A DNA stretch of 64,000 bases, taken from the NCBI RefSeq assembly GCF_002087085.1, contig NZ_MWQY01000008.1, positions 1 through 64,000 of the forward strand. The letters are read 5' to 3'. Below the pieces are notes generated by a model. It saw only the letters and a program-made list of their open reading frames with translations, did not search any database and was not told where the DNA came from. The first letter of the stretch is position 1. Each line of letters starts with the position of its first letter. This document shows positions 9,075-35,190 of the stretch, in pieces. The position numbers and the translations under genes were made by a program. This DNA comes from Marispirochaeta aestuarii. GTDB taxonomy: Bacteria; Spirochaetota; Spirochaetia; JC444; Marispirochaetaceae.

Positions 9075-9590
9075 ATGTCGGGTCCGCAATCCACAATCAA
9101 TACCCTTACGCGTCAGTATCTGACCTTTCATCTGGAAAAGGAGCTGTACGCTGTTGACGTCCGGAATGTACGGGAGGTGCTGGAGGTACCCAGAATAACA
9201 AAGATTCCCCGTATGCCTGAGTTCATGAAGGGGGTAATCAACCTCCGGGGCAGCGTCGTTCCGGTAATAGATCTGCGCCTCAAGCTTGAGCTGCCCTCGG
9301 CGGAGCAGACCGAAAGCACCAGCATTATCATTCTGGAAGTTCTCCACAAGGGGCAGGAGCTGCAGGTAGGGGCCTTCGTCGATTCCGTTGACGAGGTCGT
9401 CGAGATCGACGAAGCCAGCATCGAACCTGCACCGAAGTTCAGCACCCAGATCAATGCCGATTTTATCAATGGTATCGGAAAAATGGACGAGGAGTTCGTT
9501 ATTATCCTGAACACCTTCAAGGTCTTCAGCGAAACCGAGCTTGGAATCCTCTCCGCCGCTAATGACGAAGCAGTGCCGGCGGAGCAGTAA
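9075..9590 (+). CDS. cheW: CheW-like chemotaxis coupling protein
   Basis: 171 residues, essentially one CheW domain. The opening strand (YLTFHLEKELYAVDVRNVREVLEV), the conserved PRMPEFMKGVINLRGSVVPVIDLR block (about residues 45-68) and the VDSVDEVVEI segment are all present. CheW links chemoreceptors to the CheA kinase in the cytoplasm. GAGGAG lies a few bases before ATG 9075. It sits 49 bp after coaX and ends two bases from the convergent glnS stop. No other che gene is adjacent; a soluble receptor-like protein lies at about 33-35 kb. Confidence 0.93.
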   Translation: MSGPQSTINTLTRQYLTFHLEKELYAVDVRNVREVLEVPRITKIPRMPEFMKGVINLRGSVVPVIDLRLKLELPSAEQTESTSIIILEVLHKGQELQVGAFVDSVDEVVEIDEASIEPAPKFSTQINADFINGIGKMDEEFVIILNTFKVFSETELGILSAANDEAVPAEQ

Positions 9591-29086: not shown

Positions 29087-32000
29087 ATGACGGATGCTCA
29101 AACCGACCCTGGACAACTGAAGAAACTCCTCCCCCACACCATGGGCGCAGAGCGGTATCGCCTTTCTCGGCGCCTGTCCAATGCCGGCAAGGACCCGCAG
29201 CGCCTGGAGGAGGCTGCACTCGGGATACTCGAGTCCGTTGAACAGAGACGCCGGAGAGCCGAAGGACTGCCCGCGCCGGACTACCCGGAGGAGCTTCCCA
29301 TTACGGCCCGGAAGGATGAAATCGTCGCAGCCATACAAAGGAACCAGGTGATCATTCTCTCAGGAGAAACAGGCTCAGGCAAATCGACCCAGATACCGAA
29401 AATGTGCCTGGAAGCCGGCCGGGGCATCGACGGCCAGGTAGGCTGCACCCAGCCCCGTCGTATCGCCGCCCTGAGCCTGGCATCCAGGGTTGCCGAGGAA
29501 CTTGGGGACGGAGAAAAAAAATGGGTCTCCAGCAAGATCCGCTTTCAGGAATCCGGCTCCGACGATGCCTATATAAAGTTCATGACCGATGGAATCCTGC
29601 TGGCGGAGACCCAGTCGGACCGCTTTCTGAACCGATATGACACCCTGATTATCGACGAGGCCCATGAACGGAGCCTGAATATCGACCTGATCCTCGGCAT
29701 TCTGCGGAAACTGCTCAAAAAACGCCGGGATCTCAAGCTGATTATAACCTCCGCCACAATCGACACGGAAAAGTTCTCCGCTGCCTTTGACGGAGCCCCG
29801 ATCTTTGAGGTCTCCGGAAGAACCTACCCGGTGGAGGTGATCTACCAGCCTCAGACCGGCGAATCCGAGGATCTCTCTTATGTGGAACAGGCGGTGGCTG
29901 CGGTTGAGAATATCTGTCGGACAAGCCGCGACGGAGACGTCCTTGTCTTCATGCCCACCGAGGCGGACATCCGGGAAACCTGCGACGGTATCGAAGGTCT
30001 GGGAATATCTTCCCTGACGGTGCTTCCTCTTTTTGCCAGGCTTACCTCCGCCGCCCAGAGCAGAATCTTCGCCACCCACGCAGGACGCAAGGTGGTCGTC
30101 GCCACCAACGTGGCGGAGACCTCCATAACCATTCCGGGAATTGTCTACGTTGTGGACACCGGCCTGGCCCGGATTTCAACCTATTCCCCCGCCTCGCGAA
30201 CCACCGCCCTGCCGGTTTCGCCGATATCCCGCTCCTCCGCGGACCAGCGCAAGGGACGGGCAGGACGGGTCCGGCCGGGGGTCTGTATACGGCTCTACCC
30301 GGAAGAGGATTACCAGAGCCGTGAGGAGTTCACCAGACCGGAGATTCTCAGAGACAATCTGGCGGATGTAATCCTGCGCATGGTGTCCCTGCGCCTTGGG
30401 GATGTGGAGGATTTTCCCTTTATCGACAAACCCTCGACCCGACACTTAAGCGACGGAATCGGCATTCTCCGGGAGCTCGGGGCAGTTACCCGGGACAGGC
30501 AGGGAGGTCTGCAGCTGACCCGCCACGGCCGCCTGATGGCCCGGCTGCCCCTTGACCCGCGCTTTTCCAGAATGCTTATTGAAGCAGCCGAGCAGGGCAT
30601 TCTGCGGGATGCAGCGGTCATTGTATCGGTACTGACCATCCAGGACCCCCGGGACAGGCCCCAGGGGGAGGAAGACAAGGCCGATTCGGCCCACAGGAAG
30701 TTCCATGATCAGGAGTCGGACTTTGTAAGCCTTCTGAATATCTGGGAAGAGTACCACCAGGTATGGCGACAGGTACGCAGCCAGGGCAGGATGCGCAAAT
30801 ACTGCAGCCAGAACTACCTGAGCTATCGCCGCATGAAGGAGTGGCGGGATATTCACCTGCAGGTTACCTCCCTGTTGAAGGAACAGGGCTACGAGATCAA
30901 AACACCCGATATAAGCAGAAAACCGGAGAAAAAGGGAGAACCCTCCCCCTGGTACACAGCTTTGCATATATCCATTCTGACAGGGCTGCTCTCCAATATT
31001 GCGGAGAAAAAGGAAAAAAACATCTATACCGCCGCCAGGAATCGGGAAGCGATGATCTTTCCAGGCTCCGGTCTCTTCGGGAACGGTCCCGGATGGCTGG
31101 TAGCAGCCGAGATGGTCAGGACCAGCCGGCTGTTCGCCCGGACCTGCGCCGGGATTGAACCCGCCTGGCTTGAACGGATAGCCACCGGACAGTGCAGCTA
31201 CAGCTATCATGGAGCAACCTGGGCGGAAAAACAGATGGAGGTCACTGCGGTGGAGCAGGTACGCCTCTACGGACTCCTGATAAACCCCGGACGGACCGTC
31301 GCCTACGGAAAAATCAATCCCGGGGAGGCCTCGGACATCTTTATCCGGGAAGGAATCATGGAGGGGAGGTACGACTTTCGCCGGATACACCGGATTCTCC
31401 CGGTCCTAGAAAAAAACAGAAACACCCTTAAGGGAATCCTCAAACTGGAGGAGAAACTGCGACGACGGGACATCTACTGCGGCGACGAGGAGCTCTTCCG
31501 ATTTTATCGGGAGAGGATTCCCCGGGAGGTGTACGATTTCAAGGGCCTTGAGAAGTACCTGAAAGAGAGCGGGGAGGGAATCAGGAAACTGGAACTCTCC
31601 CGGGAAGATATCATGCTCTACAATCCGGACAGCGAAATCCTGGAACGTTTTCCCTCAGAGGCAGTAATCGATGGTCATCGTATAGACCTCGAATATGTAT
31701 TTGATCCCCAGCGCCCGGAAGACGGGGTCACCGCCCTTATTCCGGAGCGCATAAGCCGTGATCTGACAACCCCTGTATTCGACTGGCTGGTTCCTGGACT
31801 TTTCGAGGAGAAGGTCAGCACCCTCATGAAAGGGCTGCCCAAGGAGTACCGCCGACGCCTCGCTCCGGTCTCGGAGAGCGCCGGAAGAGTTGCCCGGAAC
31901 ATACCCCGGAATACCCGGGAACGGCTCGTAGTAGCTCTGAGCCGCTATATTCAGGAGGACTTCGGCTTTCTTATCCCCGAATCCGCCTGGGACGAAGAGT

Positions 32001-33028
32001 CCCTGCCCCCCCATTTGAAAATGCGCTTTACCGTTGTTGATGCCCGGGGCAGGAGACTGACGGAAGGCCGGGACAGGGAAGTCCTGACCTCTGCGGGGCC
32101 CTCGAAGCATTTAACCGGCAGCCTGGACCGGCTGAAGCGCTCCTGGGAGATCGAGGAACTGCGGATCTGGGACTTCGATGAGATTCCCGAACGGGTGGAG
32201 GGAGACGACGGGCTCCCCGCTTTCCCGGCCCTTACGCCCGAAGGGACGCAGGTCGCCCTGCGGCTCTATTTAAGTGCCGAGGAGGCTGCAGGAATCCACC
32301 CCGACGGGGTGGCCCTTCTTGTCTACCGCTCCTTCTCCGATATTCTCAAGACCTTCCGCCATGAGTTCATGCTCGGTAAAGAGTATCAGATGAAAGTGCT
32401 GCCCTTCGGCGGTCTCGAGAGCTTTAACGAGGGGGTCTGGCGATCCCTGACCATGAGACTCTTCCGTCGCAGCATACGGAGCAGGTCCGAATATCAGGAG
32501 TTCTCCGAGTGGATAAAGCCGCGACTCTACTCGGAACTGAAGGAGCTCTATCAGCCGGTATTGAGTGTCCTGGAGGAATACGCCCAGGTGCGGGAGTGCC
32601 TGTCCCGCCTTGAGACCAGGGAAGGCTCCAGGAAGGGGGTCAAAAGGTTCCTGTCGGTCCGGCGCAAAGAGCTTGAAAACCTTGTGCCCAGAGAGTTTTA
32701 CCGACTCTATGACAAGGAGGAGCTCAAAGAGGTTCCCCGCTTTCTCAGGGCCCTGAAAACCCGCATCGAGAAGGGGGCTGTAAACCCGGCGGCGGACACC
32801 GAAAAAGCTTTCGCGCTTATCCCCTACCTCAGCTGGTACAGGGAGACCAGGGATCTCCTGAAGGAGAGGAGCGGAATGAGCTATGCAAAGCGTCAGGCCT
32901 TGAAGGAGTACCGCTGGGCCCTGGAGGAGTATAAAATTCAGCTTTTTGCCCAGGAAATGGGTACCCGGATAAAGATAAGCCCACAGCGCCTAGACAAGCG
33001 TATCAGGACCATCGAGGAGATGCTCTGA
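29087..33028 (+). CDS. hrpA: ATP-dependent DEAH-box RNA helicase HrpA
   Basis: 1313 residues, the usual length for HrpA. Walker A is GETGSGKST (residues 93-101), the DEAH box is residues 190-193, motif III is SATID and motif VI is QRKGRAGRV. The helicase-associated winged helix, OB-fold and the long HrpA-specific C-terminal region (DUF3418) follow. It unwinds RNA, with roles in mRNA processing and in rescuing collided ribosomes in related bacteria. The gene has no ribosome site and may be leaderless. Its last 26 bases overlap the convergent hydrogenase-chemoreceptor gene. Confidence 0.95.
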   Translation: MTDAQTDPGQLKKLLPHTMGAERYRLSRRLSNAGKDPQRLEEAALGILESVEQRRRRAEGLPAPDYPEELPITARKDEIVAAIQRNQVIILSGETGSGKSTQIPKMCLEAGRGIDGQVGCTQPRRIAALSLASRVAEELGDGEKKWVSSKIRFQESGSDDAYIKFMTDGILLAETQSDRFLNRYDTLIIDEAHERSLNIDLILGILRKLLKKRRDLKLIITSATIDTEKFSAAFDGAPIFEVSGRTYPVEVIYQPQTGESEDLSYVEQAVAAVENICRTSRDGDVLVFMPTEADIRETCDGIEGLGISSLTVLPLFARLTSAAQSRIFATHAGRKVVVATNVAETSITIPGIVYVVDTGLARISTYSPASRTTALPVSPISRSSADQRKGRAGRVRPGVCIRLYPEEDYQSREEFTRPEILRDNLADVILRMVSLRLGDVEDFPFIDKPSTRHLSDGIGILRELGAVTRDRQGGLQLTRHGRLMARLPLDPRFSRMLIEAAEQGILRDAAVIVSVLTIQDPRDRPQGEEDKADSAHRKFHDQESDFVSLLNIWEEYHQVWRQVRSQGRMRKYCSQNYLSYRRMKEWRDIHLQVTSLLKEQGYEIKTPDISRKPEKKGEPSPWYTALHISILTGLLSNIAEKKEKNIYTAARNREAMIFPGSGLFGNGPGWLVAAEMVRTSRLFARTCAGIEPAWLERIATGQCSYSYHGATWAEKQMEVTAVEQVRLYGLLINPGRTVAYGKINPGEASDIFIREGIMEGRYDFRRIHRILPVLEKNRNTLKGILKLEEKLRRRDIYCGDEELFRFYRERIPREVYDFKGLEKYLKESGEGIRKLELSREDIMLYNPDSEILERFPSEAVIDGHRIDLEYVFDPQRPEDGVTALIPERISRDLTTPVFDWLVPGLFEEKVSTLMKGLPKEYRRRLAPVSESAGRVARNIPRNTRERLVVALSRYIQEDFGFLIPESAWDEESLPPHLKMRFTVVDARGRRLTEGRDREVLTSAGPSKHLTGSLDRLKRSWEIEELRIWDFDEIPERVEGDDGLPAFPALTPEGTQVALRLYLSAEEAAGIHPDGVALLVYRSFSDILKTFRHEFMLGKEYQMKVLPFGGLESFNEGVWRSLTMRLFRRSIRSRSEYQEFSEWIKPRLYSELKELYQPVLSVLEEYAQVRECLSRLETREGSRKGVKRFLSVRRKELENLVPREFYRLYDKEELKEVPRFLRALKTRIEKGAVNPAADTEKAFALIPYLSWYRETRDLLKERSGMSYAKRQALKEYRWALEEYKIQLFAQEMGTRIKISPQRLDKRIRTIEEML

Positions 33029-35129
33029 ACTGTCCCTCACCCCGCAGACTGTCGATGTTTCTCTCGGAGATATCATTGATTGAGTTGATCACACTCCTCA
33101 TGTTGCCGAGCATTTCATCCATGGAAGCCTGAGAGGCATGCATATCCGCAGCCATATCCTTCAGCTCGGACAGGGAATCGGTTACCTGTGTCCCGCCGAC
33201 GGACATCTCGTCCATTGCCATGATTACCTCGCTGATACTGTCGGCAACTCCCTGTATATGATGGATCATTTCGTTGATACTCTCCCCTGTTTTCTGGGAA
33301 ACGCTGGAGGTATTCCGGATTTCACTGATGATATCCTTCAATGTTCCGGATATTGTCGTCGAGTTCCGGTGAGACGTCACGGACAGACGACGGACCTCGG
33401 AGGCGACAATCGCAAAGCCCCTCCCCGCTGCACCGGCATGGGCCGCTTCGATGGCGGCGTTTATGGACAGTATGTTCGTATTGTCCGCGGCATCATTGAG
33501 GACTGCAATCAGATTGTCTATATCCTCAATGGAATCCACTACCCTCTCGATTGATTCCACCGTATCCGTCATGTCTTTCCTGCCCGATCTGGCCAGATCG
33601 ACAAGATTCACGATGGCATTCTGTTTCTCCTGAGATTTTCTGGTGGTATTTCTTATGGAAGATATCATCTGTTCGATAACTGCCGAAGACTGCAGAATGA
33701 AGCTGTGCTGACTCTCGAACTTCCTGCGGACGTTTTCCATTAAACCCTCGATGCTGTTGATCAGTTCACGGGAATGCAGGATTTCCTCATGCAGGCGCGT
33801 GGAAATACCGGCGGTGTTCTCCTGAGATTCGACAATCATTCGTGTTTGATAGTGATGACAGTTTTCTGCTTTATTCAGACCGTTGAGAATTGCGGTTGCC
33901 ATCATTTCACAACTGTTATATCCGCAGGCAGCGCAATTCAGAACATCCTTGACCGTAGTTTTTTTCATATCCGCATATATTTTCTGTAATTGCTCAGCGT
34001 CGGGGTACCGCAGCTGCATGTTGGAGGATAAATCACGGTAGCCGCGATCATAGAGTCCGGATTTCCAGTAGGTTTTAACGACTTTGCGAATCTTCCTTGT
34101 TATCCCTTTGTCGCCTTTCAGCAACGTCGGTTTGTATTTCCGCCGAGCTGCTTCCATGCGTTTTTGGATGGAATATTCGACTTCATCAACAATTTTATCG
34201 CGATCAGGGGTTCCGGGACCTCCGTTACAGCCGGAACTGCAATTCAGACAGTCCACAAGCAGAGGGTTATATCCCTTCTTCAGCGCATGATGAAGAGTCT
34301 TGAAATATGGATAGACCGTCTCGGGCCCTTCGATTTTCCGTATTCTCTTGACAAGCCCGGGACGTTCGCGTTCGACGGTACGCATCAGGCCGCCGGGCGA
34401 CGAGAACAGGACCGCCCGCTCAGGCAGCGGACCGGCGAAATCAAGCTCCGGATATTTGGAGAGGTCAATCTTTTTTCGGTCCAGATAGGCCCGGATACCG
34501 GTAAAGGTCACATTATAGTCACCCATTCCGGTCTCCTCAAACTCACGTTTCTTCGCTATGCAGGGCGAAAGAACCGCAACGGCGTGGTCCTTGTATTCAG
34601 GGTAGAATTCACGAATCATGGCTATGGTATGAAGCATGGGACTCTGTGCAGGAGCCAGATATTTCAGCAGTTCCGGCTGGTAAATCTCAATATAGCTTAC
34701 AATCGCCGGGCAGGGCTGGGCGATCAGCATTTCGGGTTTTTTATTTTCAATATGTGCAAGGTATGAATGAACCGTCAGCTCAGCTCCGAAACTGACATCA
34801 AAAACAGCGTCAACCCCCAGGGAAGCAAGAAATCCGTTCAGGCGCAGATAGGAATCAGCGAAATTCGCCGCCACGGCGGGTGCAGAGATGGCGACCATCC
34901 TGACCTTTCTTTCAAGGTCAGTAAAAAACCGGGGGCTGTCATCAATCAGGCTGCGTGCGCCGTGGGAGCATGCATCAATACAGCTCCCGCAACCGATACA
35001 AAGATCGTGGTTGATATCAACATGCTCGCCGCTGCCGTCTATGCAGTATTTGACAGGGCAGACCGAGATACACATATGGCAATTTACGCACTTTTCCGGA
35101 TCCACCTCTACAACGGGAGTCAGCTTCAT
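33003..35129 (-). CDS. Soluble sensor: [FeFe]-hydrogenase-like domain fused to a chemoreceptor signalling domain
   Basis: 708 residues, no membrane helix. Two ferredoxin clusters (C14-C24 and C44-C54) lead into an [FeFe]-hydrogenase H-cluster domain. Its ligands are C140 (loop 1, QPCPAIV), C190 (loop 2, SPCIAKKREFE) and C297/C301 (loop 3, NCSSGCNGG). The proton-relay cysteine of true hydrogenases (first C of TSCCP) is proline 139, so turnover is probably poor and a sensing role likely. A further Fe-S motif follows (C399, C402, C407, C424). Residues 440-700 form a methyl-accepting chemotaxis coiled coil with the tip NTNILSINAAIEAAHAG. It likely reports H2 or redox state to CheA/CheW. GAGG precedes ATG 35129. 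Confidence 0.88.
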   Translation of the reverse strand: MKLTPVVEVDPEKCVNCHMCISVCPVKYCIDGSGEHVDINHDLCIGCGSCIDACSHGARSLIDDSPRFFTDLERKVRMVAISAPAVAANFADSYLRLNGFLASLGVDAVFDVSFGAELTVHSYLAHIENKKPEMLIAQPCPAIVSYIEIYQPELLKYLAPAQSPMLHTIAMIREFYPEYKDHAVAVLSPCIAKKREFEETGMGDYNVTFTGIRAYLDRKKIDLSKYPELDFAGPLPERAVLFSSPGGLMRTVERERPGLVKRIRKIEGPETVYPYFKTLHHALKKGYNPLLVDCLNCSSGCNGGPGTPDRDKIVDEVEYSIQKRMEAARRKYKPTLLKGDKGITRKIRKVVKTYWKSGLYDRGYRDLSSNMQLRYPDAEQLQKIYADMKKTTVKDVLNCAACGYNSCEMMATAILNGLNKAENCHHYQTRMIVESQENTAGISTRLHEEILHSRELINSIEGLMENVRRKFESQHSFILQSSAVIEQMISSIRNTTRKSQEKQNAIVNLVDLARSGRKDMTDTVESIERVVDSIEDIDNLIAVLNDAADNTNILSINAAIEAAHAGAAGRGFAIVASEVRRLSVTSHRNSTTISGTLKDIISEIRNTSSVSQKTGESINEMIHHIQGVADSISEVIMAMDEMSVGGTQVTDSLSELKDMAADMHASQASMDEMLGNMRSVINSINDISERNIDSLRGEGQFRASPRWS

Positions 35130-35161: not shown

Positions 35162-35190
35162 ATTATAGCGAAGTGCTGCACCTGTTGCAA
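35162..35190 (-). promoter_or_regulatory. Promoter of the hydrogenase-chemoreceptor gene
   Basis: On the minus strand: TTGCAA (35190-35185), a 17-bp spacer and a perfect TATAAT (35167-35162). The predicted leader to ATG 35129 is about 25 nt. Confidence 0.65.

Follow-up and report, generated by a model that had tools for sequence, protein, structure and literature searches.

A [FeFe]-hydrogenase-like domain fused to a chemoreceptor coiled coil in Marispirochaeta aestuarii: a putative cytoplasmic receptor for H2 or redox state

A [FeFe]-hydrogenase-like H-domain is joined to a methyl-accepting chemotaxis protein (MCP) in one gene of the analysed window, i.e. the stretch of 64,000 nucleotides at the start of M. 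aestuarii contig NZ_MWQY01000008.1. The fusion protein is probably a sensory [FeFe]-hydrogenase that acts as a cytoplasmic chemoreceptor and reads H2 or redox state. The same role, with signalling through CheA and CheW, was assigned to it in the original prediction, and it is supported by the cluster ligands, the recurrence of the fusion, the maturases and the CheA, CheW and CheR proteins of the genome; H2 is the presumed signal and swimming the presumed output. The idea of an H2 chemoreceptor is already in print, and the protein is a further member of a known putative class.

The coordinates of the gene and its parts are presented in Table 1. The start codon of the fusion gene is ATG, preceded by a Shine-Dalgarno-like GAGGT. 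Sites of the TTGCAA-17-TATAAT type, one of which lies upstream, were no rarer in shuffled sequence. The 3' end of the gene overlaps the convergent gene of a HrpA-like helicase (29087-33028) by 26 bases (33003-33028).

Table 1. Coordinates of the fusion gene, its parts and the cheW gene in the window.
Feature	Position	Strand	Details
Whole gene, [FeFe]-hydrogenase-like H-domain / FeS / MCP fusion	33003..35129	minus	708 aa, single ORF
Two N-terminal 4Fe-4S ferredoxin clusters	34947..35111	minus	residues 7-61, Pfam Fer4
H-domain, Fe_hyd_lg_C	34215..34901	minus	residues 77-305, Pfam (PF02906, 7.4e-33), Foldseek, VIA-align
C-terminal 4Fe-4S motif, PF04060	33858..33941	minus	residues 397-424, Pfam (2.6e-6)
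MCP helical hairpin	33027..33857	minus	helices 425-564 + 566-701, AlphaFold model, Pfam, Tsr alignment
Hairpin tip NAAIEAAHAGA, CheA/CheW contact region	33429..33461	minus	residues 557-567
Methylation-type motif SAVIEQMISS	33657..33686	minus	residues 482-491, consensus match only
Promoter-like site TTGCAA-17-TATAAT	35162..35190	minus	upstream of start codon, consensus only
cheW gene	9075..9590	plus	same window, 24 kb from fusion gene

The architecture proposed earlier was recovered in all its parts. Both ferredoxin clusters are kept, as determined from the Fer4 matches and eight aligned cysteines, and C140, C190, C297, C301 and P139 were found at the claimed positions. The MCP coiled coil is complete with its tip, forming a full hairpin with an MCPsignal match (PF00015, residues 513-658, 3.6e-28). 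No membrane helix was detected by hydropathy in the protein, the highest 19-residue mean being only 1.31. A third iron-sulfur site, located between the H-domain and the coiled coil, had been overlooked. The model of the H-domain was aligned by VIA-align with solved [FeFe]-hydrogenases over 340-360 residues, resulting in a Z of about 30 and an rmsd of 2.6-3.0, and it was matched to [FeFe]-hydrogenases also by Foldseek.

The scan of named genomes resulted in 593 matching stretches, at least 547 of which were confirmed as relatives; the best 80 were analysed and 78 of them had a readable frame. The MCP half was present in 69 of the 78 readable relatives (best 80 of at least 547 confirmed), spirochaetes included, which answers the question whether HydA_C plus MCPsignal architectures occur elsewhere. 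In a search of 60 relatives, full-length homologues with 40-52% identity were obtained from further families of the class, and some of these lie in single-contig genomes. By record title, the relatives among the best 80 belonged to Spirochaetota (50), Bacteroidota (12), Planctomycetota, Bacillota and no fewer than six further phyla; many of them are metagenome bins with uncertain individual phylum labels. Termite-gut Treponema were among the closest relatives (best 80 of at least 547), which suggests a role in H2-rich habitats. A conserved gene neighbourhood, such as a hydrogenase operon, was not found among the 78 loci. The DnaJ-domain gene upstream of the fusion gene in the window did not recur at the loci of the relatives.

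MCP was the commonest output in the clade (best 80 of at least 547). In one branch, the same H-FeS module is followed by PAS with either a SpoIIE phosphatase or a histidine kinase. As the module is joined to varied signalling outputs, it behaves like a sensor module. The MCP output appears to be ancestral in the clade, with two changes to other outputs. The second change was seen in a Treponema bin (L091:2757-5492), where the H-domain, again of the QPC type, continues into a PAS-like and HATPase half which looks partly CheA-like; this protein is possibly a direct H-domain kinase.

The ligands of the ferredoxin clusters are C14, C17, C20, C24 and C44, C47, C50, C54, and all eight were invariant in the 79 aligned clade sequences. 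The same was determined for C399, C402, C407 and C424 of the third motif, Cx2Cx4Cx16C, which is the signature of the sensory groups C and D (PMC8163306). The H-cluster ligands C140, C190, C297 and C301 were likewise invariant in 79/79 sequences from about ten phyla; their loss in close homologues, which had been named as evidence against the proposal, was not seen. In total, 16/16 cluster cysteines (4 H-cluster and 12 accessory) are conserved throughout the 79 sequences, and together with the equally invariant pocket residues this indicates strong purifying selection.

The three H-cluster loops of the fusion protein are AQPCPA (P139, C140), SPC190 and DCLNC297xxGC301. Loop 1 of the clade reads [A/S]QPC in every sequence, and the position of the relay cysteine is always occupied by Pro. 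This position is Cys in group A and mostly Ala in groups C and D (PMC10407848). The replacement of the relay cysteine by proline, as predicted, was thus borne out by the loop alignment to the other groups. Loop 2 of the clade is SPC, with Ser188 where group A carries Met353, and loop 3 is DCLxC, with Leu295 at the Met497 position and Asp293 replacing a Glu which is near-universal there in groups A to D. Where group D has its relay Glu252, the clade alignment always shows Leu248. Altogether Q138, P139, S188, L248, D293, C294 and L295 were invariant in 79/79 clade sequences. C294 (window 34248-34250) is a non-ligand cysteine located three residues ahead of the ligand C297 throughout the clade.

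The positions of the group A relay, C299 and E279/E282 of CpI, correspond to P139, Y123 and H126 in the fusion protein, and those of the group D relay, E252 and E289 of TamHydS, to L248 and D293; the group D rows of the same alignment have Glu at both. With P139 and L248 in place of Cys and Glu, both proton relays described so far are absent. Judging from these residues, the loss of both relays would slow or abolish turnover, and such a pocket is more in keeping with a slow binder or a sensor than with an enzyme. No description of the Q138-P139 / L248 / D293-C294-L295 pocket signature was found, and it may be new.

In the tree of 63 H-domains, the fusion clade came out as a single, fully supported group, set apart by a long branch (1.7 changes per column). 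The best tree joined it to the PAS-bearing group C (99/91), and a joint clade with group D was not rejected (p-AU 0.24); the groups were labelled from diagnostic residues, the domains present and NCBIfam models (A, B), not from TmHydS or TamHydS reference sequences. The group C features present are the lost relay cysteine (P139) and the C-terminal Cx2Cx4Cx16C. No Pfam match to PAS was obtained after the FeS motif of the fusion protein, where the MCP helix begins at residue 425; PAS occurs in some members of the clade whose output is a kinase or phosphatase. The link to an MCP output, by which HydDB group C2 is recognized, is present as MCPsignal within the same protein. Assignment to group D from Ser188 and Leu295 alone was ruled out by the residues at the E252/E289 positions, and it is not favoured by the tree.

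The direct MCP output had been considered much less explored. This remains correct for experiments, as no biochemical or behavioural study of a [FeFe]-hydrogenase-type chemoreceptor was found in the open literature searched. It does not apply to the idea, given HydDB group C2 and the prevalence of this output in the clade. Table 1 of HydDB (2016) lists [FeFe] group C2 as 'Chemotactic (putative)', via methyl-accepting chemotaxis proteins (PMC5037454). The fusion protein resembles C2 in that a hydrogenase-like sensor is linked to an MCP output, with a function that is only inferred in HydDB. In contrast, no residue-level detail was found in the HydDB text consulted, and the Q138-P139 / S188 / L248 / D293-C294-L295 signature comes from the present data. 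Earlier work, cited in a 2016 paper on Fibrobacteres (PMC4704652) and in PMC12483993, is reported to have proposed sensory hydrogenases as the means by which bacteria of the termite gut find their way in H2 gradients.

TmHydS of Thermotoga maritima (group C, M2f) shares with the fusion protein the two N-terminal clusters, the absence of the relay cysteine (Ala131 in TmHydS) and the C-terminal Cx2Cx4Cx16C, and its group is the nearest one in the tree. However, TmHydS has PAS after the FeS motif where the fusion protein has the MCP helix directly, Ala instead of Pro at the relay position and Gly instead of Ser at the M353 position. TamHydS of Thermoanaerobacter mathranii (group D, M2e), a putative sensor, is similar in having Ser at M353, Leu at M497, no PAS and the same FeS motif; it differs in Glu252 and Glu289, which are Leu248 and Asp293 in the fusion protein, and in having no fused output domain in place of the MCP. 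Cytoplasmic MCPs have the same soluble hairpin and standard tip, whereas their sensor domain is a haem, PAS or zinc domain and not a hydrogenase-like metalloprotein head. Sensory H-domain proteins of termite-gut bacteria, with a proposed orientation in H2 gradients, were reportedly treated by Warnecke 2007 and Ballor 2012; they are likened to the fusion clade by this proposed role and by the termite-gut Treponema among its closest relatives, and were compared by description only.

In the AlphaFold model (mean pLDDT 86), the two long helices of the MCP half pair as a hairpin, and the first one starts directly after the last FeS ligand, C424. The VIA-align list was filled by the hydrogenase half, and the MCP half was therefore assessed by sequence. 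Its alignment with Tsr was free of gaps for about 190 residues, and 24 of the 36 tip residues were identical to those of Tsr. Q487 was aligned with Tsr Q311, a known methylation site of Tsr. The EAAHAG tip signature was found also in several membrane-bound MCPs of the genome. The His for Arg in the tip is no oddity, being common to other MCPs of the genome.

The genome contains 27 MCP genes (own count from 28 matches), at least three CheA-size proteins with CheW domains, two of which were confirmed as CheA, and several CheW and CheR. The cheW-like gene noticed at 9075 indeed encodes CheW (PF01584, 1.1e-39).

HydG, HydE and HydF are clustered on contig C26; the absence of these maturases would have counted against the prediction. 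Among 26 carrier genomes, HydE was above the cut-off in 19, detectable in 21 and below the cut-off in 7, several of the latter being incomplete. The M. aestuarii genome has seven H-domain genes, i.e. two each of groups A and B, one of the PAS-type group C, one of the group D type and the fusion. Since the maturases are explained by the six other H-domain proteins, HydEFG is necessary but not specific evidence for an H-cluster in the fusion protein. Other [FeFe]-hydrogenases were found in 12/12 carrier genomes searched.

In the proposed mechanism, the H-cluster would be loaded into the H-domain by HydEFG. H2, or a changed redox state of the H-cluster, would alter the H-domain, and the change would reach the coiled-coil bundle by way of the C-terminal FeS module, the last ligand of which (C424) directly adjoins the first receptor helix. 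The FeS module would occupy the place of the HAMP domain of membrane receptors, and its shift could alter the packing of the bundle. The altered bundle would then shift the activity of CheA through CheW and change the swimming pattern. In the group D protein TamHydS, H2 at 1 atm leaves the equivalent C-terminal cluster unreduced, though H2 does change the secondary structure of TamHydS (PMC13104023). A conformational route of the signal is therefore preferred for the fusion receptor and is considered no less likely than an electron route. A more specific proposal is that a widespread deep clade senses H2 without both known relays, perhaps via Asp293/Cys294, and hands the signal directly to the coiled coil without PAS, acting as a dedicated cytoplasmic H2 receptor; this is regarded as tentative and on balance rather unlikely in its full form.

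The conserved iron-sulfur clusters could alternatively serve a receptor of the redox state or ferredoxin pool, reporting the level of reductant (or damage by CO or O2), with the H-cluster as a redox element only and H2 not being the physiological signal. The full conservation of the two ferredoxin clusters and the third FeS cluster is in agreement with this, and the lack of both known relays, with invariant P139 and L248, argues against fast H2 turnover. However, a plain redox sensor would not need the four H-cluster ligands, which are invariant in about ten phyla, and the other [FeFe]-hydrogenases in all 12 carrier genomes searched also speak against it. Such a receptor is considered unlikely, though it is the most probable of the alternatives.

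It is less probable again that the receptor feeds a chemosensory pathway with a non-swimming output, such as gene expression or a second messenger. The several CheA and CheW of the genome indicate more than one Che pathway, and SpoIIE and kinase outputs are found in sister proteins of the clade, but the fusion protein shares its EAAHAG tip with several membrane MCPs and aligns gap-free with Tsr. A relic, i.e. an H-domain without an H-cluster retained only as a structural dimerisation head, would suit the branch length of 1.7 changes per column and the altered pocket of the clade; the purifying selection on the 16 cluster cysteines and seven pocket residues in 79/79 sequences makes this very improbable. 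The joining of two genes by an assembly error, which had been raised as a possible refutation, can practically be dismissed, as the same fusion forms a single ORF in many assemblies made independently, some of which are single-contig genomes.

For the favoured chemoreceptor of H2 or redox state, the simple read-out of the clade, CheA activity and swimming, could make the signal transfer from an H-cluster measurable. The conserved pocket also offers a test of the minimum of the known proton pathway that is required for an H-cluster to respond to H2.

Further loci of the genome were observed in parallel. On the same contig, about 5.7 kb past the window (C8:69749-70408, L006), an H-domain protein of the group D type with 468 aa is encoded; it has the FeS motif as well as the Glu typical of group D (SGGE) and is a putative second H2 sensor of the genome. 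An ORF resembling aspartate ammonia-lyase lies between hydE and hydF (L008, contig C26:41010-45861). On contig C25 (16675-21021; L004, L005), a group B hydrogenase gene is located ~3 kb from the gene of a PAS-bearing group C sensor; such proximity of sensor and enzyme genes has often been reported.
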